The notes under the pieces: model-generated
Told to the model about the DNA's origin: nothing
Seen by the model: only the letters and a program-made list of their open reading frames with translations
The model's database searches: none
Made by a program: the position numbers and the translations under genes
In this document: positions 16,897-36,447 of the stretch, one piece after another
Numbering within the stretch: the stretch's first letter is position 1
Layout: every line of letters begins with the position of its first letter
DNA from: Burkholderia pyrrocinia
Lineage (GTDB): Bacteria; Pseudomonadota; Gammaproteobacteria; Burkholderiales; Burkholderiaceae
DNA length: 64,000 bases
Direction of reading: 5' to 3'
Assembly: GCF_003330765.1 (NCBI RefSeq)
Contig: NZ_CP024903.1
Coordinates: forward strand, 1,984,001 to 2,048,000

Positions 16897-17517
16897 CTAC
16901 GCGCCCTTCTTGTCCAGCAGCGCCTGGTACTTCTGCAGGCTCTCGTCGATCTTGTCGAGCGCGATGCTCGCGGCCTCCCCTTCGATCGCCTCTGCGGCAC
17001 CCGCGACGATCGCCGCAGTCGCGACGAACAGGTCCGTCAACAGCAGGCCCATCGCATCCATCGCCATCCCGGGCACGTTCTCGTCGATGGTCTTCTGCGC
17101 CAGATCCTTCATCAGCACGCTCTTGCCCGCGATCGCCAGCGACGTCGACGCCTCGAAGTAGTTGGCCGCCGCCTGCGCGACCAGGCCGCCCGCCTGCGTG
17201 ATCATCATGTTCGGGCCGACGGCGATTTGCGTCGTCGCGTAGGACGCAGCCTCCGCGTTGATCGCCTGCACGGTCTGCAGCGCCAGGCTGCCGGACCCGG
17301 CCGCATCCGCGATCTGGTTCGGCGCCTTCAGCGCATCGGTGAGCCTGCGCAACCGGTTGACCGGCCATGCGCGCGCGCCGGCCTTCGACGCCGCGGTGTG
17401 CGGCGCGACATCGGCCGGCGTCGTTGCTTCGGCGGCGGCGTCTGCGGCGTCTGCGGCATCGCTCGGCGTCTGCGGCGCGCCGTCGCCGCGTCCGCCCAAA
17501 AGGCCTTTCATGTTCAT
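16897..17517 (-). CDS. R-body locus hypothetical protein
   Basis: This is a 206-residue protein with a Gly-rich start and a low-complexity Asp/Ala stretch at about 20-45. A long helical Ala-rich region follows (about 75-200) with small-residue heptads. It ends in a charged Lys-Tyr-Gln-Ala-Leu-Leu-Asp-Lys-Lys segment. The composition is similar to R-body proteins, but the RebB signature is absent. It lies 29 bases downstream of a RebB-family gene and 437 bases from the ECF sigma gene on the same strand, so all three are probably co-transcribed. A structural or assembly role in the R-body is inferred from position only. Confidence 0.65.
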   Translation of the reverse strand: MNMKGLLGGRGDGAPQTPSDAADAADAAAEATTPADVAPHTAASKAGARAWPVNRLRRLTDALKAPNQIADAAGSGSLALQTVQAINAEAASYATTQIAVGPNMMITQAGGLVAQAAANYFEASTSLAIAGKSVLMKDLAQKTIDENVPGMAMDAMGLLLTDLFVATAAIVAGAAEAIEGEAASIALDKIDESLQKYQALLDKKGA

Positions 17518-17546
17518 GATTCAGGTATCCCGAGAGTCATCGCGTC

Positions 17547-17840
17547 CTAATGCGTGGAACCCGTCTGCGGCCCGCCCGTCGCTGCAGGCAACGCGCCGCC
17601 CGATGCGCCCTTCGGCGACGCTTCGACGGACAGGATCATGGCCACCGCCTTCGACACGACGGCGTTCGAAATCTGGTTCAGCGCCGCCTGCTGCTGGGTC
17701 ATGTTCTGCGCCGAGATGCCGACGGCCTGGCTGAACATCTGGTAAAGCATGCCCAGCGCCTGGGCCGGGGATCCCGCGACGACGTTGACATTGGTCTGCG
17801 TCAGCGCGTCGGTAACCTGCTCATTGACTTTGTCTGCCAC
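17547..17840 (-). CDS. RebB-family R-body protein
   Basis: This 97-residue protein carries the RebB family signature at the N-terminus (Val-Thr-Asp-Ala-Leu-Thr-Gln-Thr-Asn-Val-Asn-Val-Val), then Ala-Leu-Gly-Met-Leu-Tyr-Gln and a helical Gln/Asn/Ala-rich region. R-bodies are large protein ribbons built from small Reb proteins. They can extend rapidly and were first described in Caedibacter. The start is a GTG with AGGAGG four bases upstream. It lies between the ECF sigma gene and the 206-residue protein gene. The Pro/Gly-rich tail (last 25 residues) is probably flexible. Confidence 0.85.
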   Translation of the reverse strand: MADKVNEQVTDALTQTNVNVVAGSPAQALGMLYQMFSQAVGISAQNMTQQQAALNQISNAVVSKAVAMILSVEASPKGASGGALPAATGGPQTGSTH

Positions 17841-17953
17841 GAGGCCTCCTCGGATCTCGGCTCCGGCATGCGATTGAAGGAACGGCGGGCCGGCAGGCCA
17901 TCGACGCCGCGCATGCCGTTAGGAACGCTGCGTGCCCGCGTTCGTGAACGCGC

Positions 17954-18511
17954 TCAGGCGAGTTCCTCGCGCAACTTCTTGCGCAGCAGCTCGACGCGCT
18001 TTCTGGCAAGCGGCTCGTTGATCCCGAGCGTCGCCGCGATGTACAGATAGGGCCGGTCCTCCTCGAACTTCAGCGTGAACAGCATCTGCTGCTGCTGCGG
18101 GAGCGCGGACAGCGCCTGCTCGAGACGCAGCAGCTGCTGCCGGAGCAGTAGTTGCTGCTCCACCGACGGTGCATGGCCAGCCAGCTCGACGGTGTGATCG
18201 TCGTCCCAGCCCGAGTCGAATTCGAGCATGCCGTTTTCGCGGAGACGGCGGCGCGCGCCATCGAGGAACGCGTGGTTCAGCGCCAGAAAGAGAAAGCCGG
18301 CCAGGTTCCGAACACGCTCGGGCGAACGCTGCAGGTAAATGTGGACCTTGAGTGCGGTATCGGAGAGCAGTTCGTCGGCACGGTGAATATCGCCCTTGCA
18401 CAACAGGCGCGCGCGGCGCCGCAATTTCCCCTGCATTTCCCGCCACGTGCGATCGAGCTGCTGCGCCGGTGACTCAGGCGTCGGGGCAGCGTGCTGGTTC
18501 GAGGTTGTCAT
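17954..18511 (-). CDS. ECF-type sigma-70 factor
   Basis: This is a 185-residue RNA polymerase sigma factor with region 2 at about 25-95 (Arg-Ala-Arg-Leu-Leu, Ala-Asp-Glu-Leu-Leu-Ser-Asp-Thr-Ala, Phe-Leu-Phe-Leu-Ala-Leu-Asn-His-Ala-Phe). Region 4 is at about 125-180 (Leu-Ser-Ala-Leu-Pro, Phe-Thr-Leu-Lys-Phe-Glu, Ala-Arg-Lys-Arg-Val-Glu-Leu-Leu-Arg-Lys-Lys). No anti-sigma gene is adjacent. It is transcribed towards the RebB and 206-residue genes and divergently from the Crp-like gene, so it likely directs R-body gene expression. Its target promoter cannot be recognised here. Confidence 0.8.
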   Translation of the reverse strand: MTTSNQHAAPTPESPAQQLDRTWREMQGKLRRRARLLCKGDIHRADELLSDTALKVHIYLQRSPERVRNLAGFLFLALNHAFLDGARRRLRENGMLEFDSGWDDDHTVELAGHAPSVEQQLLLRQQLLRLEQALSALPQQQQMLFTLKFEEDRPYLYIAATLGINEPLARKRVELLRKKLREELA

Positions 18512-18918
18512 CCCGTGCCTTCCTTTTTCATGGAAAACACAGAATCGATTCGATGCCGCGAATGGCGCTGTTACCCGCGTAACACCGTTATTACGATAAT
18601 CGGTTTCGGTAAATTTTCTTGATTATTATTACGGAAATTTTTAAACCCCCGGCATAGCCCAAACCGTCGTTTCAGGCGCGCCGCCGGACGTGAATAACGG
18701 CATCGCGATGAAAAAGAACGACTGCAGCCGCGATGCGTTCGCGCGCCGGCACGCGGCTATCCTTGTCGATCGACCAAGCGTCCTTGCCGCCGAAGTGCCG
18801 CCATATGCGGACTGCTTGCCGATTATTTCGCCATCTTCATTATTCATTTTTCACGCAGTGCCAAAGGCAGCGTTTTTCGCTAGGTGGCCGCATCGTCAAA
18901 CAACCTCGCGCGGAAACC
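18512..18918. promoter_or_regulatory. AT-rich divergent promoter region (ECF sigma / Crp-like)
   Basis: This 407-base stretch between the ECF sigma gene and the Crp-like gene has no convincing gene. Bases 18585-18650 are strikingly AT-rich compared with the rest of the locus. They hold several T- and A-runs suited to promoters on either strand and to silencing by H-NS-like proteins. No perfect FNR or sigma-54 site was found. Confidence 0.4.
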
Positions 18919-19593
18919 ATGCCTGCCCTTGCTAATGTTCAAACGCTGAGCACTATACCGATACTCACCGATCTCCCGGAAAGCCTGCTCGCTCACATCG
19001 AGCGGCATGTCACGCCCTGGCCCGAACACGGCAACCGCCTGTTGTTCTTCAAGGGCGATCCGGGAGATTTCGTCGCCTTCGTGCACCGCGGCCGCGTCTA
19101 CAAGACGCTGCACGAACCCGGCGGACGCGAAATCATTCTCGGCCACTCGATGCCGGGCGAACTCATCGGCGAAAGCACGCTAGTTCGCGCACACCGGCGC
19201 AGCTTCACCGCCCAATTGAGCCCCGACTGCCGCATTTCGCTGCTGCATCGCCAGTACTTCGCGCCGCTGCTGGCCAACGCGGATTTCATGGAGCGCATCC
19301 ATGAGCAGCTGTGCCGGCACATCCATCAGCTGAGCGACTTCGTCGAATCGGCATGCCTGTACCGGCTCGAAGCAAGGCTCGCGCGCCATCTGTTGAACCG
19401 CATGCAAGGGAGCGATCTCGAGGTGCCGCTGCCGGAGAACCAGAGCATCCTCGCCGCGATGCTCAACGTCAGCCGGCCGCGACTGAACAGCAGCCTGCAG
19501 AAGATGCAGCGCGACGGCCTGATCCGGCTGCACGAGCACGGTGTGACGATCGAGAAACCGGATCAGCTCCGGTACATCGTCGACGCCAATTGA
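18919..19593 (+). CDS. Crp/Fnr-family transcriptional regulator (no Fe-S cysteines)
   Basis: This 224-residue protein has an N-terminal cyclic-nucleotide-binding-like beta-barrel (about 15-125, with Phe-Lys-Gly-Asp-Pro-Gly-Asp and Pro-Gly-Glu-Leu-Ile-Gly-Glu). A C-terminal winged helix follows (about 155-215, with Pro-Glu-Asn-Gln-Ser-Ile-Leu-Ala-Ala-Met-Leu-Asn-Val-Ser-Arg-Pro-Arg-Leu-Asn). The N-terminal Cys cluster of FNR is missing, so it is not an oxygen sensor of that type. It is the only gene on the plus strand inside the R-body locus, divergent from the ECF sigma gene and convergent with a RebB gene. It is a likely local regulator. Confidence 0.8.
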   Translation: MPALANVQTLSTIPILTDLPESLLAHIERHVTPWPEHGNRLLFFKGDPGDFVAFVHRGRVYKTLHEPGGREIILGHSMPGELIGESTLVRAHRRSFTAQLSPDCRISLLHRQYFAPLLANADFMERIHEQLCRHIHQLSDFVESACLYRLEARLARHLLNRMQGSDLEVPLPENQSILAAMLNVSRPRLNSSLQKMQRDGLIRLHEHGVTIEKPDQLRYIVDAN

Positions 19594-19637
19594 CGCCCCG
19601 GCACGCACGTGTGTCGTGCAGCGTCGCGGGGAGGTTG

Positions 19638-19662: not shown

Positions 19663-19669
19663 GTGAGGG

Positions 19670-19993
19670 TCAGCCGCGCCAGTGGCCGATGGCGTTCATC
19701 AACTGCGCGACGGCGGCCAGCTGCGACGCAAAGTTGTCGTTCGCCGACCGCGCCGCGCTGGCCGACGCCACCGGCGAGCCGGCATAGAGCTGCATGATGC
19801 CGACGGTCGTGGCGGCGAGGTTGGACATCGCCTGGTTCGCCTGCATCTGCACCGCGTTGTGAAGCAGGATCGCGGACGCATGGCTGTTCGACTGCATGAG
19901 CGTGCCCAAGGCCACGGCGGGCGCTTCGCCCACCACCTTGGCGTTGGCTTGCGTGACTGCATCGGTAATCGCGGCGGAAACCTGTTCCGGCAT
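19670..19993 (-). CDS. RebB-family R-body protein
   Basis: This is a 107-residue RebB-family protein. The signature Ala-Ile-Thr-Asp-Ala-Val-Thr-Gln-Ala-Asn-Ala-Lys-Val-Val-Gly-Glu-Ala-Pro is at residues 7-24. It is followed by a Gln/Asn/Ala-rich helix and a Gly-Ile-Met-Gln-Leu-Tyr motif shared with the two upstream paralogues. An AGGAG lies 7 bases before the ATG. It lacks the N-terminal cysteines of its neighbours. It is the last gene of the long minus-strand block and most divergent of the three tandem copies, so it may be a second ribbon subunit rather than a redundant copy. Confidence 0.85.
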   Translation of the reverse strand: MPEQVSAAITDAVTQANAKVVGEAPAVALGTLMQSNSHASAILLHNAVQMQANQAMSNLAATTVGIMQLYAGSPVASASAARSANDNFASQLAAVAQLMNAIGHWRG

Positions 19994-20189: not shown

Positions 20190-20585
20190 TCAGGCGAGCG
20201 CCTTGCCGAGCGCGAGCACGTCAGCCAGCACGGAAAGCACGCCGTTCGAGCCGATTTCCGTCGCGGCGGCGCCGGCGCTCGCCGGCCCGAGCGTGTAGAG
20301 CTGCATCGTGCCCACGTTCGTCGAGGTCGGCAGCTGCACCGCGGACTGCGACTGCTGCTGCACGGCGTTCTCGAACAGCACGCTGAGCGAATGGCTCTGG
20401 GCCTGGTACAGCGATCCCGTCGCCATCGCGGGCGCTTCGCCCACCACCTTGACGTTGGTCTGCGTGACCGCGTCGGTGATCGCGGCATTGACCGCGCATG
20501 TCTTGCAGTTGCAGGGGTCCTTCGGATCCTTCGGGTCATTCGGGACCCTCAGGTCGTCGGCGTTCGCGTTTGCGTCGTTTGGCAT
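20190..20585 (-). CDS. RebB-family R-body protein, Cys-motif type
   Basis: This is a 131-residue RebB-family protein with an added N-terminal region of about 30 residues. That region contains a short Pro-Lys-Asp-Pro repeat and a Cys25, Cys27, Cys30 cluster. The Reb core begins Ala-Ile-Thr-Asp-Ala-Val-Thr-Gln-Thr-Asn-Val-Lys-Val-Val. From there it is nearly the same as the gene at 20776, pointing to tandem duplication. The start ATG has AGGAG at 7 bases. The cysteines could form interchain disulphides or bind metal. That they cross-link an R-body ribbon is speculation. Confidence 0.87.
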   Translation of the reverse strand: MPNDANANADDLRVPNDPKDPKDPCNCKTCAVNAAITDAVTQTNVKVVGEAPAMATGSLYQAQSHSLSVLFENAVQQQSQSAVQLPTSTNVGTMQLYTLGPASAGAAATEIGSNGVLSVLADVLALGKALA

Positions 20586-20775: not shown

Positions 20776-21108
20776 TTAGCCTTTCATCGCCTTCCCGATC
20801 GCGATCACGTCGGCCAGCACGGAGATGATCCCGTTCGCGCCAATTTCCGTGGCGGCCGCTCCCGCGCTTTCCGGCCCGATCGTGTAGAGCTGCATCGTCC
20901 CCACGTTCGTCGACGTCTGCGACTGGATCGCGGCCTGCGACTGCTGCTGCACCGCGTTCTCGAACAGGATGCTGAGCGAATGGCTCTGGGCCTGGTACAG
21001 CGAGCCCATCGCCATTGCCGGCGCTTCGGCGACCACCTTGACGTTGACCTGTGTGACCGCATCGGTAATCGCGGGATTGACCTGGCACACTTGACACGTA
21101 TCACCCAT
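20776..21108 (-). CDS. RebB-family R-body protein, Cys-motif type
   Basis: This 110-residue RebB-family protein starts with a short Cys5-x2-Cys8 motif and then the signature Ala-Ile-Thr-Asp-Ala-Val-Thr-Gln-Val-Asn-Val-Lys-Val-Val (13-26). A Gln/Ser-rich helix, Gly-Thr-Met-Gln-Leu-Tyr and an Ile/Val/Ala C-terminal helix follow. It is a close paralogue of the downstream gene at 20190. The ATG follows AAGGAG at 6 bases. The amphipathic helices and small-residue composition are those of R-body ribbon subunits. Confidence 0.88.
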   Translation of the reverse strand: MGDTCQVCQVNPAITDAVTQVNVKVVAEAPAMAMGSLYQAQSHSLSILFENAVQQQSQAAIQSQTSTNVGTMQLYTIGPESAGAAATEIGANGIISVLADVIAIGKAMKG

Positions 21109-21202: not shown

Positions 21203-21847
21203 CTACTCCATGGACGCTGGGCCGCGGGTGTCGTGAACGGCAGCGGCAGCATCCGGCGCGGTCGGTTCGGGCAGTTCGGTCGGACCGGCGCCAACGCTTT
21301 GCAGCCGGTCGTCTATCGCGTCGAGCCGTATGGCGAGCCGTTCGGCGAGCGAATCGACGTATTGCCGGAAGCATGCTTCGATTTCCTGCCGGATGAGGCC
21401 CGTCAGCTGTTCGCCGATCATCGCCAGCGCCTGGCGGGTGCTGTCCTGGATGTCGGCCGCGCCGGATGCCTGAGCGTCGCCCTGCGGCTCGTGCGCGTCG
21501 AGTACGCCGGACACTTTCCGCTGTTCCGACGCCAGCATGCCGAGGGTCGTCTCGTTCTGCGCATCGATCGTCTGCAGGATGCCGCGCATCTTCTCGTACG
21601 CCTTCTGCTGGTTGAGCTGCAGGAAATGCTTGACCTGCTCGCGCGCCTCCTGCCGGGTTTTCAACTGCGGCAAGGGCGGGTTCGCGGCGGGCGCCTGCGT
21701 GGCCGTGCCGGCGGCCGGCGCCGGCTGGTTCCCGTGCCTGCTCGGCAGCCGCTCCAGCAGCACCCGTTCTTCGCCAGGCTCGAGGGGCCGTCCCAATCGC
21801 TTCTCTGCGAACTGCCGCAGCAGGGGGTCGAGTGCTTCGTTGCTCAT
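21203..21847 (-). CDS. coiled-coil hypothetical protein of R-body locus
   Basis: This is a 214-residue soluble protein that I do not recognise. Residues about 1-35 are charged and include a Pro-Leu-Glu-Pro-Gly-Glu-Glu turn. Residues 40-60 are Ala/Pro-rich. Residues 62-175 form two long helices with heptad patterns (Arg-Glu-Gln-Val-Lys-His-Phe-Leu-Gln-Leu, Gln-Glu-Ile-Glu-Ala-Cys-Phe-Arg-Gln-Tyr) likely to be coiled coil. It is preceded by a strong GGAGG and lies 3 bases after a 34-codon frame, so the two are translationally coupled. An assembly or chaperone role for the downstream Reb proteins is a guess. Confidence 0.7.
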   Translation of the reverse strand: MSNEALDPLLRQFAEKRLGRPLEPGEERVLLERLPSRHGNQPAPAAGTATQAPAANPPLPQLKTRQEAREQVKHFLQLNQQKAYEKMRGILQTIDAQNETTLGMLASEQRKVSGVLDAHEPQGDAQASGAADIQDSTRQALAMIGEQLTGLIRQEIEACFRQYVDSLAERLAIRLDAIDDRLQSVGAGPTELPEPTAPDAAAAVHDTRGPASME

Positions 21848-21850
21848 GGC

Positions 21851-21955: not shown

Positions 21956-22135
21956 GGTGTTCTCCCGGAAATGGACGCGCGACGGCCCTGCCGGAAATTT
22001 CGGCAGGACCGCTGCAGGGACGAACCGTGCGACGAGTCTGTGAAATGGGGCGACCGAATCGGAACCCGTGTGCAGCCGGGCAGGCAGCATGGCGGGTCAC
22101 CCATACGGGCAACCCGACGGATCAACGCCTCCCGC

Positions 22136-23803
22136 TCACTCGGGAATGACAGGATCGTCAAACGGCTCCTCTTCGCCGGAGCCCGCCTCGTCGGCGTTAT
22201 CGCTGGTCTCTTCGGCGACGTCGGACGCCTCTTGCTGCACCTCGACGGCTTCCTCGACCTGATCCTTCAGTTGCTGGCTCACCTGGTCGCCAAGATTCTC
22301 GACGATGTCGGGAAGCGATTGCGTGACCTCGCCGAGGCTTTGGTTCGCTTCGCTCAGTTGACCGGCTTCGAGCTTCGAGCTCGCGTCGACCAGGTTGCCC
22401 TCGGCCTCCTCGATCTGCTCGTTGACCTCGATCTGTGCAAGATCCTTGAGCTGGGTGCTTGCGCTTTCGATCCCGCCGCCGATGTTGTCCCCGGCCACCT
22501 CGCTGTATGCTTCGGAGCCCGACTGACGCGCCGCACTCACGTCGTTCGCGAACGCGGCATCGTCCGCCGGCACCTGCACGTTGCCGTCGCCCGCGGCCCG
22601 GTCGGCCAGTTGCTGGTCCTGCTGCCGCGCGTCATTGCCGATCTCGTTGCCGGCATCCTGCGCATCCTGCTGCTGTTGCTGGTTGGGCGCATCGCCGCGA
22701 TTCTCGTTGGCCTGGTCGTCCTGAAGCTTGTTGTCCTTGCCGGTCAGCTTCTGCTTCAGGAAATCGAGCGCCATCCAGACGCCCATCGCCTGCAGGAAGT
22801 AGCCGAGCACCTTCTCGAACGAGAGGTTCGACCAGAACTTGTCCCAGCCCGACTCGGGCGCGAGCGGGATCGCGATCACCTTCTTGTTGAGCAGCGTGCC
22901 GGTCAGGATCGGCCATGCGGTGGTGTCGCTCTCCTTGCCCGTGAAGGTTCCCTTGAAGCCGAATGCTGCATTGAGGGCGACCGCGCCGGCGCTATCGACA
23001 ACCTGCCCATTGTCGAACGACAGCGTGCTGGTCGAGCCGCTCGATCCGGTGAGCGTGATCGTCATGCCGCTCAGGCGGTCGGCCGGATCGGCCGGCGACG
23101 GCGCGCCGGACTTCCTGGCGAACACGATCGTGCCTTCTGACGTCGCGCCGGTCTTGCCGTCGCCCGGCGCGGAATAGACGTAGTAGGTCCGGCCCGGCTG
23201 GCCTTTGTCGTCCATGCCCCACAGATACGCATAGCCGCGCATCCAGGTGCTGACCGCGACGTAGCTCGGGAAGTCGAGCCCCTTGAACAGGTCGTACTGG
23301 TTGAAGAACGCGGCGATCGCCTTCTCGCTGTCGGACACCGACGGCAGCTTGAACGCGTCGGTCATCGCGCTCTGGAAGCCGGTCGCCATCTTCGACGTCG
23401 GCGACGTCATGATGTTCTGGCAGAAGCTGAGGGCCTTGGCCATGTTGGTGGCGGCAGCTTCGGTCACCGGGATCGGCGGGTAGCCCTGCGTGCCGAAATC
23501 GAGCGCCTCGCCGACCGACATCACCGGGAACAGCGAGTCCGGCTGCGAAATCAGCAGCTGGTAGATGTAGCACGGCTTGGTCTGCCCCTTCGAATCGGTG
23601 TAGGTCCCGTCGAGCGTGACCGCGCCCGTCGCGCCGTTGGCCAGCACCTTGCTGCCCGACGACAGCGCCAGCAGTGTCAGTTCTTGCAGATAACCCTGCT
23701 TCGACGAGTTCTTCGCGACGTTGGTCGACGAGTTGAACGCATTGAGCACGACGACGCTCTTGCCCGACTTGTTGGTGATCGAGCAGTTCTGGTTGATAGC
23801 CAT
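22136..23803 (-). CDS. large scaffold-like protein with Gln-rich acidic tail
   Basis: This is a 555-residue protein of unknown family. Residues 1-300 are a globular, Ser/Thr-rich region that includes Arg-Thr-Tyr-Tyr-Val-Tyr near residue 210, similar to Gly-Thr-Tyr-Tyr-Cys-Tyr in the repeat protein at 28315. A single hydrophobic segment follows at about 330-350. Residues 365-555 form a highly acidic, Gln/Glu/Asp-rich helical tail with a five-Gln run. There is no signal peptide. A GGAG site precedes the ATG. The shared architecture with the 599-residue protein (globular head, hydrophobic belt, low-complexity acidic part) suggests a paralogous pair, possibly a membrane- or ribbon-associated scaffold. 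Confidence 0.7.
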   Translation of the reverse strand: MAINQNCSITNKSGKSVVVLNAFNSSTNVAKNSSKQGYLQELTLLALSSGSKVLANGATGAVTLDGTYTDSKGQTKPCYIYQLLISQPDSLFPVMSVGEALDFGTQGYPPIPVTEAAATNMAKALSFCQNIMTSPTSKMATGFQSAMTDAFKLPSVSDSEKAIAAFFNQYDLFKGLDFPSYVAVSTWMRGYAYLWGMDDKGQPGRTYYVYSAPGDGKTGATSEGTIVFARKSGAPSPADPADRLSGMTITLTGSSGSTSTLSFDNGQVVDSAGAVALNAAFGFKGTFTGKESDTTAWPILTGTLLNKKVIAIPLAPESGWDKFWSNLSFEKVLGYFLQAMGVWMALDFLKQKLTGKDNKLQDDQANENRGDAPNQQQQQDAQDAGNEIGNDARQQDQQLADRAAGDGNVQVPADDAAFANDVSAARQSGSEAYSEVAGDNIGGGIESASTQLKDLAQIEVNEQIEEAEGNLVDASSKLEAGQLSEANQSLGEVTQSLPDIVENLGDQVSQQLKDQVEEAVEVQQEASDVAEETSDNADEAGSGEEEPFDDPVIPE

Positions 23804-23867
23804 CGCTTTTCTCCGTAGGTGAGTAGGAACAACGCGGGTTGACGGTGATGACGTCGCTCGCGGCACA

Positions 23868-23891
23868 CGCGCCGCCTGCCCGGCGGGCGCG
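23868..23891 (-). other. intercistronic hairpin
   Basis: A nine-pair GC stem with one bulged base and a five-base loop lies between the 391-residue gene and the 555-residue gene. No T-run follows on the minus strand. It may attenuate transcription into the downstream scaffold and reb genes. Confidence 0.35.
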
Positions 23892-23913
23892 CCGTGTTTG
23901 CGTCTGTTTGCGT

Positions 23914-25089: not shown

Positions 25090-25871
25090 GGTGCCTCCTG
25101 CGTCGTCAGGGATCGCTCGACGGGCCCCGCGTCGTCGCCGCTGACGCGCGGCCGCTCGAGCACGTCGACGATCCGGTCCATCAGCGCGACGCCTTCGGCG
25201 CGCGTCGTCGCCCGCTTGTAAGAAAACCGCATGTCCAGGCTCACGCGCGTCACGCCCGAATGATTGGCGACCGTGCCGTGGCCCAGATAGCCGCCATCGA
25301 AGATCAGCACCTGCCCGTATCGCACCGGCACCGGTTCGAAATCGCCGCTGCCGTAGTCGCGCTCGAGCCACAGCGTCGCGCCGTCGAACACGTCGGTGAA
25401 CGGCATCCAGAAGTTGATCTGGTCGATCCGGCGTGTGACGCAGATGTCGTGATGGAACGAGCTGATGCTGGCCGTGCCGGGCAGGTGGATGCGCAGCTTC
25501 GGATGGCTCGTGTACGAAATCCCGCGCCCGACCAGCGGCGCGAGCTGTGCGAGCATGAAGCCGTGGTAGAGCTTCCAGAAATCGGCATCGGCAGGCTGGC
25601 GCTCCATCATTGCGCTCACCATCAGGTTGTCGCGTGGGCCGATCCGCGCGCTGCGCCCGTTGCGCCGCCGATGGTCGAGCAGGTATGCATGCAGCCGGTC
25701 GAGGCGCTGCACCTTGTACACGTCGCGGCTCAGCACGGCCGCGAACGGGAAACGCGCCGTGTCGTAGTCGAGCAGCACCCATGGGCGTCGCGGGCGCGGC
25801 CCGGCTTCGCGCACGAGTTTCGCGCGATCGACGTCGGCAATCGATGCGTCGGTGGACATGACCGTGCTCAT
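25086..25871 (-). CDS. 2-oxoglutarate/Fe(II)-dependent oxygenase, StrG/PhyH-like
   Basis: This 261-residue protein has the double-stranded beta-helix iron site. His-His-Asp (about residues 138-140) supplies the His-x-Asp facial ligands. A distal His in Leu-Gly-His-Gly-Thr-Val-Ala-Asn-His-Ser completes it, with Arg-Val-Ser-Leu-Asp-Met-Arg for 2-oxoglutarate binding. The Asn-Phe-Trp-Met-Pro and Gly-Ala-Thr-Leu-Trp-Leu-Glu segments resemble the StrG/phytanoyl-CoA family. Such enzymes hydroxylate or desaturate small molecules and peptides. Both ends overlap neighbouring genes by ATGA, placing it in a tight cassette with the borosin-like methyltransferase. Confidence 0.8.
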   Translation of the reverse strand: MSTVMSTDASIADVDRAKLVREAGPRPRRPWVLLDYDTARFPFAAVLSRDVYKVQRLDRLHAYLLDHRRRNGRSARIGPRDNLMVSAMMERQPADADFWKLYHGFMLAQLAPLVGRGISYTSHPKLRIHLPGTASISSFHHDICVTRRIDQINFWMPFTDVFDGATLWLERDYGSGDFEPVPVRYGQVLIFDGGYLGHGTVANHSGVTRVSLDMRFSYKRATTRAEGVALMDRIVDVLERPRVSGDDAGPVERSLTTQEAP

Positions 25872-28288: not shown

Positions 28289-28314
28289 GATCGATCCTCG
28301 TGACGGACGGGCAA

Positions 28315-30114: not shown

Positions 30115-30179
30115 TGCACCCATGCGCGATACGGTGAACACGGCGACGGATCGGACTGCTGACAAACCCACGTATCCAT
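30111..30179 (-). CDS. 22-residue leader or precursor peptide
   Basis: A short frame with an ideal AGGAGG six bases before its ATG encodes a Trp/Cys/Pro/Ser-containing peptide (Met-Asp-Thr-Trp-Val-Cys-Gln-Gln at the start, Arg-Ala-Trp-Val-Gln at the end). Its stop overlaps the next ATG as ATGA. The downstream repeat-protein gene has no ribosome site of its own, so this frame probably recruits ribosomes for it. The two Cys and two Trp residues also make it a possible modified-peptide precursor. Confidence 0.5.
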   Translation of the reverse strand: MDTWVCQQSDPSPCSPYRAWVQ

Positions 30180-30463
30180 TGCTGGCCTCCTGTGGAAGTT
30201 GATTCGCGCACTGTCGGACCGGCCGACAGGACGCCCGCATCTTGCGGATTCCGCTTCGACGACAACGCCGCGCCGGCTCCTTGCTCTGCGATGCCGCGCT
30301 GTCAGGTCGGCCTGTCGGTCGGCGACAGGGAACGGCTGGTTTGGCCTTCCGTCACGCAACGCGCCGGCCCGGTCCCGATGCACGACATTGCCGGGCGAAC
30401 AGGCTCGGTATCACGGTGCGCACGGTCGTTGTCCCGAGCAAGGACGCACACCGCCGGCACCGG

Positions 30464-31912
30464 TCAACTCAACAGCCGCTCGACCTCCTGGATGAGCGTG
30501 CGGCGCCGTTGCGCATCCTGCTCGTAAGCGCGCGCAGCGGCCTCGATGTCCGCGCCGCAGTGCGGACACTCGCGCTCGTGCTGGTGAACGTAGCCGTTGC
30601 AGGCACGGCACAGACCGAGCGTGGGCGGGATTCTCCCGACGTCCGGCGCACGCTTGCCCTTGTGTCTCCACGCGAGTTCGACGGTTTGACCCGACCGGGA
30701 GATGCTTGACACGGGCACGCCGTCCGCAATGCGTTCGGTGACGAGATCGAAGCGCCCCACCGCGAACGACGCCGGCGCCGCATCCTCGATCTTCTCGATG
30801 CGCTCGCGCAGGCCCTGCTTCTTCAGTTCGAGCACGCGATAGTGGCAGTAAGGGTTGTTGCCCGGCTTGCCGAGCAGCGAATGCGATGTCCACGTGCAGC
30901 CGCCGCGGCACACGTCGGCGTAGTAGCACGTGCGGCAGAATCCCCACAGGTCGTCCACGGAGCGCAACCTGCCGAAATGAATCGCGTCACTGGTCCGCCA
31001 TATCTGTTCGAGCGACAGATCGCGGACATTGCCGCCCGCGAAGCCGACCGTCGCCAGCGACGGGCAACCCTTCACGGTGCCGTCCGCTTCGAGCGCAATG
31101 ACGGTCTGCCCGGCCGCGCATCCGGTCCAGTGCACCCGCTCGTCCCCGAAACCGCGCCACAGATGCTCGTAGGGGCCGAAGTAGCCGATGTTGTTACCGA
31201 CGTTCATCAGCAGGCCGCGATCGAGACCCCGCTTGTAGAGATCGGCCAGCAGCGGCATCAGCGCCTCGAGCTGGTACGGCTGCAACAGCAATTCGTCGTG
31301 ATCGACCGCGTTGCCCATCGCGACCGTCAGCTGAATCTGCCAATGCGTGACCCCGATCTCGATGATCGTGTCCATCAGCGCCGGAAGATCGCGCATCGTC
31401 GCCGAGCCGATCTGCGTATTCACGCTGATCGCAAGACCGTGCGCGCGGGCGCGCTTGAGCGTATCCACGGCCCGGTCGAACGAACCCGGGACGTTGCGCA
31501 CCTTGTCGTGCAACGGCGCCAGGCCGTCCAGCGACACGCCCAGACCGTTCAGGCCCGCTTCGACGGCTTGAGCAAGCCGTGCCGGCGTCAGATTGCGGCC
31601 ACCCGTCTGGACCGCGCAGTACATCCCGTGCGAGCGGATTGCCTTGATGAGCTGCGTCCAGTCCTTGCGCAGGTAGGCCTCTCCGCCGATCATCGACACT
31701 TCGCGCGTGCCGAGCCTGGCCAGCGACTCGATCACCTCGAGGCACTCGTCCGTCGAGAGTTCGTTGGTGCGCCGACGGCCTGCACGGGATCCGCAATGCA
31801 GGCACTTCAGATCGCAAGCCAGCGTGATTTCCCACACGACATGAACCGGGGTAAAACGTTTGTAATCCTCATCGCCCAGGAATCGAACCGGGCGTACTTG
31901 GGTCTCGTCCAT
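30464..31912 (-). CDS. radical SAM/SPASM maturase, GDL-peptide-associated
   Basis: This is a 482-residue radical SAM enzyme. Cys33, Cys37 and Cys40 (Cys-Asp-Leu-Lys-Cys-Leu-His-Cys) bind the catalytic 4Fe-4S cluster, followed by Gly-Gly-Glu-Ala for SAM binding. A SPASM region (about 280-370) has many cysteines, including Cys-Arg-Thr-Cys-Tyr-Tyr-Ala-Asp-Val-Cys-Arg-Gly-Gly-Cys, for auxiliary clusters. The C-terminus adds a Cys-x2-Cys/Cys-x2-Cys zinc-ribbon-like module near 435-455. SPASM maturases modify ribosomal peptides and proteins. The adjacent genes encode three proteins with a shared Gly-Asp-Leu motif, the probable substrates. AGGA lies 7 bases before the ATG. Confidence 0.85.
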   Translation of the reverse strand: MDETQVRPVRFLGDEDYKRFTPVHVVWEITLACDLKCLHCGSRAGRRRTNELSTDECLEVIESLARLGTREVSMIGGEAYLRKDWTQLIKAIRSHGMYCAVQTGGRNLTPARLAQAVEAGLNGLGVSLDGLAPLHDKVRNVPGSFDRAVDTLKRARAHGLAISVNTQIGSATMRDLPALMDTIIEIGVTHWQIQLTVAMGNAVDHDELLLQPYQLEALMPLLADLYKRGLDRGLLMNVGNNIGYFGPYEHLWRGFGDERVHWTGCAAGQTVIALEADGTVKGCPSLATVGFAGGNVRDLSLEQIWRTSDAIHFGRLRSVDDLWGFCRTCYYADVCRGGCTWTSHSLLGKPGNNPYCHYRVLELKKQGLRERIEKIEDAAPASFAVGRFDLVTERIADGVPVSSISRSGQTVELAWRHKGKRAPDVGRIPPTLGLCRACNGYVHQHERECPHCGADIEAAARAYEQDAQRRRTLIQEVERLLS

Positions 31913-32041: not shown

Positions 32042-32629
32042 TCAGCGTCGCGCTTCCAGGCGTGCGATCTCGGCATTCAGCCCAGCGAGCGCTTCCTCGA
32101 TGCGGCCGGTGTTAGCGAGTTGTTGTTCGGCCTCGCGGGCCAACGCCTTCATGCGACCAAGGTCGCCCGATTGCCGCGCCTGCTGCAGGCCGACACCGTA
32201 CAGCGGCGTCACCGGCTGTTGTCGTGGCTCGAGCGGCTGCAGCGCGCCGGTCGCGGTCATGATCGCGTGTTCGACTTCGTGCCAGCGTTCCCCCTCGAAG
32301 AACCGGTAACTGGCGACACCCGACTTCCAGTCCGCCTCGACGATGCCCTGTAGGCGGAACGTTTCGGCCAGGCCGCTGGTCGGCCCCGACGGATTGCCTT
32401 GCAGGCTGAGGACGAGTTGCGTTTTGGCGCCGGGCGCCAGCACCATCTGGCTGTATTGGCCCCATACCTGCGCACGAAATTCGAGCGGCGGCCAGGTCGT
32501 CTGAGTGATGCGAGCAACGCCGCTGACCTTCTTGGCCGGCGGGTTGATGAGCAGCGCCAGCGTGAGGACAGGTGCGCCAATTGCCGGCGTTGCGATGCGG
32601 AAATTTACGGGAAAAAGAGCGGCGGACAT
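32042..32629 (-). CDS. DUF1842-DUF1843 protein with GDL motif
   Basis: This is a 195-residue protein. Residues about 1-125 form a beta-rich DUF1842-type domain (Leu-Phe-Pro-Val-Asn-Phe-Arg-Ile-Ala, Ala-Gln-Val-Trp-Gly-Gln-Tyr, Phe-Arg-Leu-Gln-Gly). Residues 143-193 form a DUF1843-type helical module: Leu-Tyr-Gly-Val, Gly-Asp-Leu-Gly-Arg-Met-Lys-Ala-Leu, and a final Asn-Ala-Glu-Ile-Ala-Arg-Leu-Glu. The Gly-Asp-Leu module recurs in the next two upstream genes and is the likely recognition element for the radical SAM/SPASM enzyme downstream. The biochemical function is unknown. GGAG precedes the ATG. Confidence 0.8.
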   Translation of the reverse strand: MSAALFPVNFRIATPAIGAPVLTLALLINPPAKKVSGVARITQTTWPPLEFRAQVWGQYSQMVLAPGAKTQLVLSLQGNPSGPTSGLAETFRLQGIVEADWKSGVASYRFFEGERWHEVEHAIMTATGALQPLEPRQQPVTPLYGVGLQQARQSGDLGRMKALAREAEQQLANTGRIEEALAGLNAEIARLEARR

Positions 32630-32675: not shown

Positions 32676-33293
32676 TCAATGCCCGGCTTCCAGTCGGGCG
32701 ATTTCCGCCTTCAGCGCAGCCAGTGCCGACGCGATTTCGTCGCGGCTTTGCAACTGATGATTCGCGGCAGCGGCAACCGTCTTCATGTGCGCGAGATCGC
32801 CGGAGGCCGTCGCCTGTTGAATGGGCGCCCCGTACAAGGGCCGCGGTCCCCCGTGCGGCTCCAGGATCACCGGGCCCGGCTCGAGCGGCACGAATTCGCG
32901 ATCAATCTTTGCCGGTACGTTCTCGATTGCGTGCCAGTTGCCGTTGTCGAAGTAACTGTAGGAGGCCACGCCGCTTTGCCAGTCGTTTTCCAGCACGAGA
33001 TGGAGCCGGAACGTCACGATGGAATTCGCGTTCGGCCCGCCGTCATTGCCCTGCAGCGTCACCAGAATTCGCGTATTGACGGGCGGCATCAGCGCCATAT
33101 AGGTGTAGTTGCCCCAGACGTCGGCATGAAACTCGACGGGCGGGTTCACTGCCTGCGTGATGGTCGCGGTGCCGACCACACTGCGCTCGGGAGTGTCGAC
33201 GAGCAACGCGAGCCTGAGCGTCGGCGCGCCCGGCATCGCCGTGCCGATTAGGTAGCCGGCCGGGAAAAGCCCTGTACGTGTGTTCTCGGACAT
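32676..33293 (-). CDS. DUF1842-DUF1843 protein with GDL motif
   Basis: This 205-residue paralogue of the 32042 gene has the same layout: a beta-rich DUF1842-type domain (Ala-Asp-Val-Trp-Gly-Asn-Tyr, Phe-Arg-Leu-His-Leu-Val-Leu-Glu) and then a DUF1843-type tail. The tail contains Pro-Leu-Tyr-Gly-Ala-Pro-Ile-Gln-Gln-Ala, Gly-Asp-Leu-Ala-His-Met-Lys and Lys-Ala-Glu-Ile-Ala-Arg-Leu-Glu. The identity pattern suggests tandem duplication followed by divergence. GGAGG lies 4 bases before the ATG. It is 46 bases upstream of its paralogue and is likely co-transcribed from the sigma-54 promoter at 33591. Confidence 0.8.
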   Translation of the reverse strand: MSENTRTGLFPAGYLIGTAMPGAPTLRLALLVDTPERSVVGTATITQAVNPPVEFHADVWGNYTYMALMPPVNTRILVTLQGNDGGPNANSIVTFRLHLVLENDWQSGVASYSYFDNGNWHAIENVPAKIDREFVPLEPGPVILEPHGGPRPLYGAPIQQATASGDLAHMKTVAAAANHQLQSRDEIASALAALKAEIARLEAGH

Positions 33294-33341: not shown

Positions 33342-33530
33342 TCAGGCCCGTTCGCGCTTCACGATTTCCTGCTTGAGCTTGCCGACCACAGCGGCAAGGT
33401 CCCCGTGCTGCTTCAGGACCTCTTCGGCCTGGCTCAGCAAAGCCTTCATTTTTGTCAGATCCCCTTCCGATATGGCCTGGTGGATCGCTACGCCGTAAGG
33501 CGGAATGACATGCCCGGTTTCCCTGTTCAT
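33342..33530 (-). CDS. DUF1843-type GDL peptide
   Basis: This is a 62-residue protein consisting only of the GDL module: Pro-Pro-Tyr-Gly-Val-Ala-Ile-His-Gln-Ala, Glu-Gly-Asp-Leu-Thr-Lys-Met-Lys-Ala-Leu and Leu-Lys-Gln-Glu-Ile-Val-Lys-Arg-Glu. It is two predicted helices joined by the Gly-Asp-Leu turn. It is the first gene after the perfect sigma-54 promoter, 60 bases downstream of the -12 element. Its small size and position beside a radical SAM/SPASM enzyme make it the best candidate for a free peptide substrate. It lacks Cys, so thioether chemistry is unlikely. Confidence 0.8.
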   Translation of the reverse strand: MNRETGHVIPPYGVAIHQAISEGDLTKMKALLSQAEEVLKQHGDLAAVVGKLKQEIVKRERA

Positions 33531-33590: not shown

Positions 33591-33606
33591 AGCAACGCAT
33601 GTGCCA
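33591..33606 (-). promoter_or_regulatory. sigma-54 promoter (-24/-12)
   Basis: On the minus strand the sequence reads TGGCAC, five bases, TTGC, then T, a perfect match to the sigma-54 consensus. The -12 element is about 60 bases before the GDL peptide start. The divergent-oriented enhancer palindromes and the sigma-54 activator gene upstream support it strongly. Confidence 0.85.
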
Positions 33607-33659
33607 GTTGCCGCACGTCCGGCATGCGCCCGCAGGATCCGCTGCGGCTCGCCGATCAA

Positions 33660-33675
33660 TGGACGAATTCGTCCG
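33660..33675. promoter_or_regulatory. activator-binding palindrome, proximal copy
   Basis: The sequence contains a perfect 14-base palindrome, GGACGAATTCGTCC, centred about 74 bases upstream of the -12 element. It shares its core with the distal copy, whose centre is 32 bases away (three helical turns). It is the expected layout of enhancer sites for an NtrC-type activator. Confidence 0.75.
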
Positions 33676-33691
33676 GTCGCTTGCTGCGCGA

Positions 33692-33707
33692 TGGACGAAT
33701 TCGTCCA
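33692..33707. promoter_or_regulatory. activator-binding palindrome, distal copy
   Basis: TGGACGAATTCGTCCA is a perfect 16-base palindrome repeating the core of the proximal site. Its centre is about 106 bases upstream of the -12 element. The Fis-type helix-turn-helix of the activator encoded at 34162-36447 is the likely binder. Confidence 0.75.
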
Positions 33708-34161
33708 TGTGCGGCTGCATGGTTCAGCGTCTCGGATGCAATGACAGTCACGACCAGGGGCTCGAGGGAAGAAGGTATGGATGGACCGCCGCGAGCGCGG
33801 CGGCTGGGGAAGGTCGATCAGCGAAGGGGGAATGCACGATTGCCGACAGGATGCGCAAGTACGCGCGGCGACGGTGCTCGCCGGTTCGAACCGAGCAACA
33901 GGTCTACGCGGAGTGACACGCGTCGACTCCGCTGCACGCGCGCTGCATCACTACCGTGTACGCCGCATTGAAGCGCCGGGCGAATCTCGACTCGTCACTG
34001 GCAAAGCACACGCAGATCGTGGAAGCTTGCCAACATCCGGGCATGTCGATCGCCTGTCACGCCGCGTCGACGTCGCCGGTGCCGACATCCGCCCGGGGAT
34101 GCAGGGTCAGGGGACCCAATTCGTCGTGCCTCGCATTCAGGAAATCGCGTTGACGTCATCG
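33708..34161. other. gene-poor gap downstream of the activator gene
   Basis: These 454 bases separate the enhancer palindromes from the stop codon of the sigma-54 activator. Open frames exist on the plus strand but have no family match, no convincing ribosome site and atypical composition, so I see no supported gene here. Confidence 0.5.
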
Positions 34162-36447
34162 CTACAGCAGCCCTGGCGCCTGGATCAGGCCCGGGGCCGG
34201 GAGCGCAGCCGCAGACACGTGCAACGGTCGCTCGAGGGCTTCGACGGCTGATGTCGTCCGCGTGGACTGTCTCAGCAGATCCGCCAGATACGCCGTCGCG
34301 GCAAGCCGCGCGGGGACCGAGCCGAGCGCCAGCGCCGTTGAGATCGCGATGCGCAGCCCTTGCTCGGCCGCGCCGGTATCGCCGAGCATCCATTGCGCAC
34401 GTGCCTTGACGATCAGCAACTCGCCCAGATAAGCGCGCTCCTGTCTGCGGATCACTTCGTCGAGCGCCTCGGAAACGAGCGCTTCGCATTGCCGCGCGCG
34501 ACCTGTGCTCAACAGGAGCTCACCATGCTTCCAGGTCTTGATCGAATAGAACAGCGCGCCACCATGCTTCGCGATGTCGTTGTCATAACCGTCCAGCAGC
34601 ATCGCCTCGGCTTCTCCGTGCTTGCCGACTGCGCTCAGATAGCACGCCCTGAATATTCGGGCCGCCCCACTGCAACAAGCCGGACCGCCGGCTGACGATG
34701 CAGCGTCGAGCGCGCTCGTCAGATCCCTGAGCCGATCGGTGTCGTTGAAGAGCATCGCGAGCCACGCAGCACCCTGGAGATCGGCCGCGCGACCGGGCGA
34801 TTGCGGATGTTCTTCCTCCGTTCGCGCGATCAAACTGTCCATCGCACGGCGTGCATCGTCGACTGCCCCGGTCTGGTATGCGGCGAGCCCCTCGAGCGTC
34901 AATGCGAGTCCCGCGACATCGACGCCCTGGGCCCCGAGCCGGCGGTCGGCGCGGCCGATGCTGCGCAGCCCGCCGCGGGACAGCGATGCCAGCGCTTCCT
35001 CGCTGTCGCCGAGCCAGAACAGCGTATTGGCCAGCGCGACGTGGGCCTCGTCGAGCGCGGCCCGATCCCCCATCGCGTGCGCGCGCTGAAGGAGTTCCTG
35101 AGCCGTGGCGCGCGCCTTGCTGAGCTGCAGCGTCACCAGTTGCGTCGTCCAGATGCCGAATTGAACCGCCGCGAGTTCACACGCGTCGCATACGCCGTCG
35201 CCAATCGACAAAGCCGCTTTGTAACAGGCCATCGCCTCGGGAAACTGCCAGCCATGGATGCTGCGCAGGTTGACGGCAAGCAGGCGATACGCGCCGAACT
35301 GAAGTCGGCGGCTGTCTTCGGTCGGGCTGGTCTTTTGCAGCAGATCGAGGCAGCGACGCAGCAGCGCAACGGCTTCGCGAAACTCGACGGTGCCGACCAG
35401 TGCTTCCGCACGCTCCAGGCACTGTCTCGCTTCCCCGTGTTGTGTTTCGCGCGCCTTGAGCCGGCGCTCGATGACCTTGCGGCCGACACCGAGCAACGCG
35501 GCCGCGGCGCTCTTGTTATACGAAGCCCTCTCCAGCGCGCGATCGATCAGCAGTCGTTCGGCTGCGGCCAGCTTGTCGTCGCCGCCAAGTTCCAGCAGGC
35601 GATCCGCGAGATGGGCACGCGCGGCGGCGTCGTGCGCCTCTGTCGCCAGAAACGGCGCCAAGGTCTCGGCGTCGATCCGCGCATGCTGTACAAACACGCT
35701 CAGCTGACTGACGAGGTTGCGCAACTGGCGCACATTGCCTGGCCACGGTTGTTCGCACAGCCGCTTGATTGCAGCCGGCGTGAACGCGATCGCGCGCGCT
35801 TGCTGGGCCGCAAAATGGGCTGCGAGGAGCGGGATGTCTTCGCTTCGCTGCGCGAGCCCTGGCACGTTGAGGATGAATACCGCGAGCCGGTAGAACAGGT
35901 CTTCGCGGAACCGGCCGGCGTGCGCTTCTTCCAGCAGGTTTCGATGCGTCGCTGCGACGACGCGCCCGTGGAACCGCAGGTTTGCCGATGCCCCGATCGG
36001 ACGGAACGCGCGCGTTTCGAGCACGCGGAGCAGTTTGGGCTGCAGCGCAAGCGGGAGCTCGCCGATCTCGTCGAGAAAGAGCGTGCCCGACCCTACCTGC
36101 TCGAACAAGCCGCGGTGGTGTTCGACGGCGCCCGTAAAGGCACCTCGCATATGACCGAAGAACTCCGCTTCGATCAGGTCGTGGGGGATGGCGCCGCAAT
36201 TCACGTCGATGAACGGCATGTCGCGACGCGGCCCGTTTGCGTGAAGACGCCGCGCGACCAGTTCCTTTCCGGAACCGGTCGGCCCGACGATGAGCAGCGT
36301 GTGCTCGGTCGGCGCGAGACGGTCGATCATCCCGACCAGTTGGCGGAACGCGGACGACACGCCGATCAGCGGATGCGCTTCAGGTGTACCCGTGTCGCAT
36401 GCGCACGCGTCAGGGCCGGAGGCGGCCCTGTTTCGTATCGGATTCAT
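34162..36447 (-). CDS. sigma-54-dependent activator with TPR-like C-terminal domain
   Basis: This is a 761-residue protein. It has an AAA+ domain with Walker A GPTGSGKE (55-62), the sigma-54-contacting GAFTGA loop (102-107) and Walker B Leu-Phe-Leu-Asp-Glu-Ile-Gly-Glu (123-130). A Fis-type helix-turn-helix follows at about 305-335 (Asn-Lys-Ser-Ala-Ala-Ala-Ala-Leu-Leu-Gly-Val-Gly). The remaining 420 residues are helical repeats with TPR-like Ala/Leu/Tyr patterns, probably the sensing region. There is no receiver or GAF domain at the N-terminus, so control is by the C-terminus, an uncommon order. It reads towards the enhancer and promoter at 33591-33707 and likely activates the GDL/maturase block. 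Confidence 0.88.
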   Translation of the reverse strand: MNPIRNRAASGPDACACDTGTPEAHPLIGVSSAFRQLVGMIDRLAPTEHTLLIVGPTGSGKELVARRLHANGPRRDMPFIDVNCGAIPHDLIEAEFFGHMRGAFTGAVEHHRGLFEQVGSGTLFLDEIGELPLALQPKLLRVLETRAFRPIGASANLRFHGRVVAATHRNLLEEAHAGRFREDLFYRLAVFILNVPGLAQRSEDIPLLAAHFAAQQARAIAFTPAAIKRLCEQPWPGNVRQLRNLVSQLSVFVQHARIDAETLAPFLATEAHDAAARAHLADRLLELGGDDKLAAAERLLIDRALERASYNKSAAAALLGVGRKVIERRLKARETQHGEARQCLERAEALVGTVEFREAVALLRRCLDLLQKTSPTEDSRRLQFGAYRLLAVNLRSIHGWQFPEAMACYKAALSIGDGVCDACELAAVQFGIWTTQLVTLQLSKARATAQELLQRAHAMGDRAALDEAHVALANTLFWLGDSEEALASLSRGGLRSIGRADRRLGAQGVDVAGLALTLEGLAAYQTGAVDDARRAMDSLIARTEEEHPQSPGRAADLQGAAWLAMLFNDTDRLRDLTSALDAASSAGGPACCSGAARIFRACYLSAVGKHGEAEAMLLDGYDNDIAKHGGALFYSIKTWKHGELLLSTGRARQCEALVSEALDEVIRRQERAYLGELLIVKARAQWMLGDTGAAEQGLRIAISTALALGSVPARLAATAYLADLLRQSTRTTSAVEALERPLHVSAAALPAPGLIQAPGLL

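Follow-up and report, generated by a model that had tools for sequence, protein, structure and literature searches.

Does a contiguous run of genes that encodes R-body proteins, two kinds of peptide-modifying enzyme and several regulators build one machine, or do separate systems lie side by side in it? The question is raised by a block at positions 16,897 to 36,447 of a 64,000-nucleotide stretch of Burkholderia pyrrocinia DNA (contig NZ_CP024903.1, positions 1,984,001 to 2,048,000), hereafter called the window, to which coordinates refer unless another locus is named. An initial annotation had proposed an R-body-like contractile polymer with post-translationally modified subunits, scaffold or cargo, switched on by sigma-54, and, as an alternative, two neighbouring systems sharing a genomic island. 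Our analysis favours, with a probability of about 0.65, three separable modules: a radical S-adenosylmethionine (SAM)/DUF1842 operon under a predicted sigma-54 switch, a borosin-type cassette that likely N-methylates a long (Val/Ile/Thr-Asp)n tract in one of its own proteins, termed scaffold A, and an ordinary reb cluster. Three systems otherwise readable as one machine are thereby separated, and a compact, widely scattered cassette is isolated in which a backbone-modifying enzyme, an oxygenase and an alternating-aspartate protein are inherited together.

Three adjacent modules and their separate occurrence

Profile and family searches of the window proteins recovered every component that had been named from the sequence, at or near the position given for it: four RebB proteins, an extracytoplasmic function (ECF) sigma factor, a Crp-like regulator, a SPASM maturase, GDL/DUF1843 proteins, a methyltransferase, an oxygenase, two scaffold-like proteins and a sigma-54 activator. 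Read in the minus direction, the genes encode the sigma-54 activator, a DUF1843 protein, two DUF1842-DUF1843 proteins, the TIGR03913 maturase, scaffold A, the methyltransferase, a 2-oxoglutarate (2OG) oxygenase, a 391-residue protein, scaffold B, a 214-residue protein, three RebB proteins, the divergent Crp-like regulator, the ECF sigma factor, the fourth RebB and a 206-residue protein. The block was rightly described as almost wholly minus-strand, since one gene, that of the Crp-like regulator (18733-19593), lies on the plus strand. Three gene modules stand side by side here, with sharp borders, and each occurs alone in other genomes. Module 1 (30.4-36.8 kb) runs from the activator to the TIGR03913 radical SAM maturase, module 2 (about 22.1-30.3 kb) holds scaffolds A and B, the borosin-type methyltransferase, the 2OG oxygenase and the 391-residue protein, and module 3 (16.9-22.05 kb) is the reb cluster with its Crp-like and ECF regulators.

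We searched 249 genomes of the same family for the methyltransferase (E <= 1e-30), the TIGR03913 maturase and RebB; genome searches scored only the best candidates in each genome (four for the methyltransferase, three for scaffold A), so that misses are possible. RebB was present in 22 genomes (21 above the Pfam cut-off), the maturase in seven and the methyltransferase in six. RebB and the maturase occurred together in four of the 249 and, outside the window's own genome, always on different contigs (G083, G205 and G013). In no genome of this set but the window's own was the methyltransferase found together with RebB or the maturase, and nowhere else did any two modules share a contig. Among 65 genomes of the same genus, the methyltransferase was detected at E <= 1e-100 in the window's own genome only. 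Such a co-occurrence survey had been suggested as a check on the integrated hypothesis, and its outcome is that the three components are not inherited together.

The borders of the modules were located by comparing the window with 17 stretches, each 18 kb long, that surround reb or maturase loci. Neither the cassette nor the maturase operon was found in any of the 11 same-genus reb stretches; ten of these carry the reb module complete without the other modules, and the eleventh (L107) holds a decayed copy. At the nucleotide level, the reb module ends at 16873-16903 and at 22045-22053 in 10 genomes, and module 1 at 30464/30416 and 36622/36791 in L112/L113, in two blocks each. The cassette matched Paraburkholderia mimosarum (L005) over 22090-30272 at 93%, the contig of that species stopping at 22090. 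For the methyltransferase (94%) as for scaffold A (97%), the closest named relatives come from Burkholderia.

A scan of genome contigs then defined 67 loci with relatives of the methyltransferase, each with flanks of up to 10 kb a side, less at contig ends. A tblastn comparison of 18 window proteins with these loci gave no Reb, DUF1842/1843, maturase, ECF or Crp match in the flanks, and a hidden Markov model built from the four Reb copies of the window likewise had no match there. A generic sigma-54 activator match (32-35% identity) was seen at three of the loci (L013, L015 and L057). The suggestion of neighbouring systems within one island was right in kind, but the systems are three, not two.

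A borosin-type cassette with an alternating aspartate tract

The enzyme at the centre of module 2 (25868-28288, minus strand) is a borosin-type backbone N-methyltransferase with a binding/clasp region and about 390 extra C-terminal residues. Its profile matched the solved structures of OphMA (E 2e-108) and SonM (E 3e-52), and its predicted model retrieved OphA as the top Foldseek hits (E 6e-19), with a poor superposition over the whole length (root mean square deviation about 24). In an alignment that drew on 24 of 120 listed matches (347 in all), Tyr102, Tyr105, Arg111 and Tyr115 were invariant in 25 of 25 aligned sequences and corresponded to Tyr63, Tyr66, Arg72 and Tyr76 of OphMA. The helical binding/clasp region is present, the alignment reaching OphMA residue 381, and it also gives a weak LigA-like match (E 0.029). 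Homology, the catalytic Tyr/Arg/Tyr residues and the binding/clasp region together identify the enzyme as borosin-type and bear out the earlier assignment. No core is evident at its own C-terminus, where the predicted model shows a beta-rich domain.

The oxygenase (25086-25871, minus strand) matches known families only weakly (PhyH, 17.8 bits against a cut-off of 22; TIGR04324, 46.4 bits against 150), and its relatives are annotated StrG. The HxD...H...R pattern is invariant: His140, Asp142, His198 and Arg209 are kept in all 24 aligned sequences (the window protein and 23 of 37 relatives), so that the iron ligands and the later arginine expected of a 2OG-Fe(II) oxygenase, as it had been called, are in place. 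The gene for the 391-residue protein (23914-25089, minus strand) follows; it has relatives near the methyltransferase at 13 of the 67 loci, and the methyltransferase, oxygenase and 391-residue genes overlap stop to start. Refined starts are 28288, 25871 and 25089 for these three genes, 23803 for scaffold B and about 30108 for scaffold A, for which a GTG slightly upstream is also possible.

Scaffold A (28315-30108, minus strand) carries the (Val/Ile/Thr-Asp)n tract at residues about 351-423, followed by 173 residues. Scaffold B (22136-23803, minus strand) is a paralogue of its N-terminal part and lacks the tract; the two are homologous over about 307 columns (hhalign probability 99.5). The tract was aligned in 26 scaffold A proteins, nine of 35 having been dropped, here and from structure prediction, because they fell outside 580-640 residues. 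In all 26, aspartate is invariant at 24 alternate positions between 352 and 418, its partners being for the most part Val, Ile or Thr; also conserved are a brief hydrophobic break and the IDTDV(D/N)V end. Scored over the best 60-residue segment of each, the 35 proteins have Asp at a median of 26 of 30 alternate positions, with minima of 17 in L040 and 18 in L027, whereas none of 30 scaffold B proteins exceeds 11. The recognition of two scaffold-like proteins, one with such a tract, is thus upheld, the tract being conserved far beyond chance and the scaffolds being homologous, and the label "scaffold or substrate" given to the tract-bearing protein was a good guess. An origin of the tract as a DNA microsatellite was ruled out by its mixed codons together with the conservation of Asp from the window to Paenibacillus.

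Relatives of the partner proteins occur at many of the 67 methyltransferase loci: the oxygenase at 37, scaffold A at 34 and scaffold B at 29. The tract itself follows one subtype of the enzyme, being present at 36 of 42 loci whose methyltransferase C-terminal domain scores above 110 bits and at none of the other 25 (P 4e-13), a split that was chosen after the scores were seen and applied to loci that are not independent by descent; at the 20-bit split of the script itself the figures are 36/48 against 0/19 (P 6e-9). The oxygenase is present at 33 of the 36 tract loci. Similarity matrices of the methyltransferase, scaffold A and oxygenase correlate at 0.77-0.87, with none of 999 permutations as high (31 loci and the window), which shows that the three are inherited jointly without proving contact between them.

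The cassette has a sparse and patchy distribution: scaffold A was found in one of 349 genomes sampled across the phylum. By our own assignment from record titles, tract-bearing loci with at least one isolate belong to the Pseudomonadota, Myxococcota, Bacillota, Cyanobacteriota and Bacteroidota, and metagenome bins alone add the Nitrospirota, Acidobacteriota and Actinomycetota. Relatives of the methyltransferase covering over 98% of the query lie on large plasmids of Azospirillum lipoferum and Mycetohabitans. When open reading frames were clustered, no gene family outside the cassette recurred at more than five of 45 loci. With most cassette loci sharing no additional family, there is no sign of a protease or exporter devoted to the system, and the modified protein itself is the likely product.

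Some individual loci are of separate note. In the Magnetococcales (L041, 6318-9848), a single frame of 1177 residues joins a borosin methyltransferase, the C-terminal domain, a hydrophobic segment and an acidic tail with a short C-terminal IDVDSDAEIDID. At L054 (9959-11647), a shorter borosin-type methyltransferase is followed by many ELSS/EQDAAELSS repeats, a possible repeated core. A megaplasmid of a Mycetohabitans endofungorum isolate from Rhizopus (L118, 1-14923) encodes the methyltransferase together with a StrG-type oxygenase and two hypothetical proteins; a very large non-ribosomal peptide synthetase/polyketide synthase gene lies about 6 kb away, with IS21-type elements in between.

The best reading of module 2 is a split borosin system in which the tract would serve as core and would likely be kept on its scaffold. 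Several lines suggest that the methyltransferase acts in trans on the tract, where it would methylate the backbone nitrogen of the hydrophobic residues. SonM is reported to methylate residues i and i-2 (PMC8429565), its sites in SonA being Leu63 and Ile65 (PMC11285071), and the tract would be a fitting substrate because Val, Ile and Thr recur in this register. Type III borosin cores are described as alternating acidic and other residues, and KchMA as methylating Val, Ala, Leu and some Asp (PMC11395268). The Magnetococcales fusion of the methyltransferase with IDVDSDAEIDID, one case, hints at the tract as substrate. The oxygenase may hydroxylate the same tract, perhaps at the invariant Asp residues. 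Methylation of every second nitrogen would give a long extended strand with one edge unable to form hydrogen bonds, and the product would be a single-edged strand, soluble and acidic, running from one folded end of scaffold A to the other and remaining part of that protein, not cut out. In its full form, this protein-embedded borosin is a tentative proposal, to which we give somewhat less than even odds: a nearly continuous tract of about 75 residues would carry an N-methyl group on every second one, a 2OG oxygenase devoted to the tract would oxidise it, and scaffold A would become a single-edged, acidic beta-strand device that is never excised.

Were the tract the substrate, it would represent a long and regular modification of a ribosomal peptide backbone, with a possible role for bacterial borosins beyond small natural products. 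If the full proposal held, borosin chemistry would build a structural or metal-handling protein, not a small peptide, across at least five phyla.

The radical SAM operon, the reb cluster and their regulators

Module 1 opens, on the minus strand like its other genes, with the sigma-54 activator (34162-36447; Sigma54_activat, 204.5 bits), which shows weak TPR matches in its C-terminal half and no match to a receiver domain. There follow a DUF1843 "GDL" protein (33342-33530; PF08898, 70.9 bits), two DUF1842-DUF1843 proteins (32676-33293, PF08896 140.7 and PF08898 76.7 bits; 32042-32629, PF08896 117.1 and PF08898 68.3 bits) and the radical SAM maturase (30464-31912; TIGR03913, 987 bits against a cut-off of 592). 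A TIGR03913 protein above cut-off with DUF1842/DUF1843 partners marks the operon as a GDL motif peptide radical SAM system. Two studies report that DUF1842/1843 genes are among those most induced at entry into stationary phase in B. thailandensis (PMC12322963) and that in Chromobacterium they are quorum-controlled and lie beside a co-expressed maturase (PMC12114271).

Two palindromes GGACGAATTCGTCC (33661-33706), 32 bp apart from start to start, are likely sites for the activator, and a -24/-12 sigma-54-like promoter TGGCACATGCGTTGC (33592-33606, minus strand) has one mismatch to the consensus. An exact match to the palindrome occurs only twice in the 8.0 Mb genome, each time upstream of the DUF1843 gene. 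Matches to -24/-12 elements are no commoner across the whole window than in shuffled sequence, so that the case for TGGCACATGCGTTGC as a promoter lies in its position. Among the other maturase stretches, L112 and L113 keep one exact and one near copy of the palindrome at the same 32-bp spacing; no exact copy occurs in L111, L114, L115 or L116. A -24/-12 match also precedes the operon in L112 (at 11768), L113 (6498) and L114 (11150), and occurs in L005. Copies of the activator beside the same maturase are 81%, 84% and 67% identical in L112, L113 and L114, and none was found beside it in L111, L115 and L116 (stretches of G083, G013 and G122). The whole set of activator, palindromes and promoter thus goes with the radical SAM operon in two genomes, G118 and G205, and in G164 the activator and the promoter match do so. 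Because the palindromes and the -24/-12 match precede module 1 and recur with the maturase operon, the predicted sigma-54 switch belongs to that module.

The reb cluster, by its genes alone, has regulators of its own. It comprises, on the minus strand, the 214-residue protein (21203-21847), RebB 1 (20776-21108; PF11747, 83.9 bits), RebB 2 (20190-20585; 78.9 bits), RebB 3 (19670-19993; 74.1 bits), the ECF sigma factor (17954-18511; TIGR02937, 51.7 bits), RebB 4 (17547-17840; 73.7 bits) and the 206-residue protein (16897-17517), which has no Pfam match up to E 1; the Crp-like regulator on the plus strand has cNMP_binding and HTH_Crp_2 domains. All four RebB genes exceed the Pfam cut-off of 24 bits. 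The 214- and 206-residue proteins accompany the reb genes in 11 of 11 same-genus stretches, as does the Crp-like regulator (partial in L107), and the ECF sigma factor is found in 10 of 11. The decayed cluster of L107 (6304-8775) belongs to G205, where the same contig bears a further, divergent reb cluster and another contig the maturase operon.

Sigma-54 control of the reb genes was rejected, both exact GGACGAATTCGTCC sites preceding DUF1843 and none being found exactly in the 11 reb stretches. Two of these stretches have an upstream -24/-12 match, at 3.6 kb (L106) and 5.3 kb (L103) from the reb block, and two have a looser palindrome (L107 and L109); all four are taken as chance. The idea of a sigma-54 switch for the whole locus therefore holds in part: a predicted switch exists and travels with the radical SAM operon, but it does not serve the reb genes.

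Whether it serves the cassette is a question to which P. mimosarum contributes. Before scaffold A, its contig has 81 bp of the sigma-54 promoter region, then 156 bp of the maturase gene end and following sequence, and then the cassette; TGGCATATGCGTTGC is kept in the upstream sequence and the palindromes are lost. Between these two remnants the DUF1843, DUF1842 and maturase genes are missing, and the cassette is retained. An apparent insertion element, named by eye, lies just upstream of the promoter remnant (L005, 1-2530). The remnants beside the cassette indicate that the joined order of modules 1 and 2 is common to two species. In the B. pyrrocinia strain, the sigma-54 promoter of module 1 may accordingly read through into the cassette, and modules 1 and 2 may be expressed from one promoter, while the reb cluster would remain under its own Crp-like and ECF regulators. 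This part of the original sigma-54 idea, with the cassette placed directly behind a sigma-54 promoter remnant, keeps some standing.

To the right of the block, the window (36500-64000) has a lower G+C content (about 0.57-0.66) and transposase genes: a Tn3-type fragment (37796-38554) and IS4/5-type (47358-48224), ISL3-type (49211-50431) and Mutator-type (54389-55639) genes. At 56837-62607 lie genes for ATP synthase subunits, two of alpha/beta type and one for subunit a, in an arrangement reminiscent of an N-ATPase.

Alternative readings and comparison with known systems

A number of observations weigh against the arrangement and mechanism favoured here. Four actinobacterial loci (L012, L019, L022 and L046) have a strong C-terminal domain and no tract in the available sequence, as do the cyanobacterial loci L023 and L024, whose contigs begin just before the enzyme; L043, one of the 25 loci without a strong C-terminal domain, has its contig cut inside the enzyme. 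The scaffold A model is folded at both ends with a predicted local distance difference test score below 50 in the tract, and fold searches with it gave no confident match. The oxygenase is missing at three of the 36 tract loci (one a contig end) and the 391-residue protein at most of them, so not every part of the cassette is needed, and at L018 about 9 kb separate scaffold A from the methyltransferase. The Azospirillum locus has a pair of ABC-transporter genes some 7 kb upstream, which could encode an exporter there. Of the 35 tract-bearing genomes, four contain RebB, which lies on a different contig in three and 8.8 Mb further along in the fourth, a Nannocystis, a placement that would allow a distant link, and four contain maturase relatives below the cut-off (about 390-430 bits). 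The link between promoter and cassette comes from one P. mimosarum contig with its upstream palindromes gone, and the activator adjoins the maturase in just three of the six other genomes.

Four other explanations can be set against these data. That the whole block forms an integrated system, an R-body-like polymer under sigma-54 control whose Reb, GDL or scaffold proteins are enzyme-modified, finds some encouragement in the contiguity of the genes on nearly one strand and, weakly, in the absence of a terminator-like site on the coding strand between modules 1 and 2. We rejected it, and consider it very improbable, because each module occurs alone elsewhere with the same borders, Reb and maturase lie on different contigs in the three other genomes with both, and no Reb gene was found in the flanks, up to 10 kb a side, of any of the 67 methyltransferase loci; the reb cluster, moreover, has its own Crp-like and ECF regulators, and reb expression in P. 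aeruginosa is described as requiring the transcription factor RcgA and the sigma factor FecI2 (PMC8322103). A narrower union, in which this lineage has modules 1 and 2 as a single operon and the radical SAM enzyme, methyltransferase and oxygenase act on the same scaffold or GDL proteins, with reb separate, would account for their adjacency and common orientation across a gap of about 355 bp and for the -24/-12 region and maturase 3' end just upstream of the cassette in P. mimosarum. We judge it unlikely, since that species keeps the cassette without the DUF1843, DUF1842 and maturase genes between the remnants and none of the 35 tract-bearing genomes has a maturase over the cut-off.

The other two concern the tract. 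It could, like other Asp-rich repeats, be an acidic linker that binds metal or has a mechanical role, the methyltransferase modifying another part or another protein; the invariant residue is indeed Asp and not its hydrophobic partner, and weak matches to Ser-Asp adhesin models arise from the tract. The restriction of the tract to one methyltransferase subtype, at either split, and its fit in register to known borosin chemistry make this linker rather unlikely in our estimate. More doubtful still is a two-part membrane-active weapon formed by scaffolds A and B with the modified tract as its working part. In the five proteins scanned, the tract is immediately preceded by a hydrophobic stretch, which would suit such a weapon, as would two weak resemblances, of the scaffold B profile to the hemolysin II C-terminal domain (E 0.0076) and of the scaffold A model to cytolysin domains (Foldseek E 0.09 and above). 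All of these hemolysin and cytolysin matches fall below a trustworthy level, and no secretion gene family is common to more than five of 45 loci, small families having been left unnamed.

With three separable modules preferred, each can be placed beside its known relatives, and modules 1 and 3 fall within known kinds. Module 1 belongs to the GDL motif peptide/rad_SAM_trio system (TIGR03913 with DUF1842/DUF1843), from which it stands out by the sigma-54 activator, which accompanies the operon in three of six other genomes, and by the paired palindromes, which do so in two. Like the reb clusters of Burkholderia (PMC13430693) and P. aeruginosa (PMC8322103), module 3 has several RebB genes alongside those for a transcription factor and a sigma factor, and it shows only ordinary variation. 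Our literature search, which did not extend to the primary papers on borosin types VII and VIII, found no paper that joins R-bodies with borosins or describes a Val-Asp cassette. Module 2 may coincide with one of these published types. One of the methyltransferase loci (L008) is from Pseudomonas mosselii, from which, by our guess at the reading of its name, the enzyme PmoM may also come. PmoM is named among the type V, VII and VIII enzymes (PMC11395268).

Compared with OphMA and the fungal fused borosins, module 2 has a homologous methyltransferase and clasp region, but no core is evident at the enzyme C-terminus. It shares with KchMA, of type III, a long bacterial enzyme, and type III cores alternate acidic and other residues as the tract does (PMC11395268); the core of KchMA is fused to the enzyme, a difference drawn from its description and not from its sequence. 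About 160 residues are described after the core of the type VIII borosin, and scaffold A has 173 after its tract. The cassette is homologous to borosin systems and, in the outline given by PMC11395268, fits the split borosins of "Class 2", sharing the same homology, catalytic residues, fused binding/clasp region and a candidate core in a neighbouring protein. It differs from them by the long C-terminal domain, beta-rich in the model, the usual oxygenase partner, the paralogous second scaffold and the very long alternating-Asp tract; the novelty, if our reading is true, would lie in an alternating core of great length that is embedded in a protein and has an oxygenase of its own and a pair of scaffolds.

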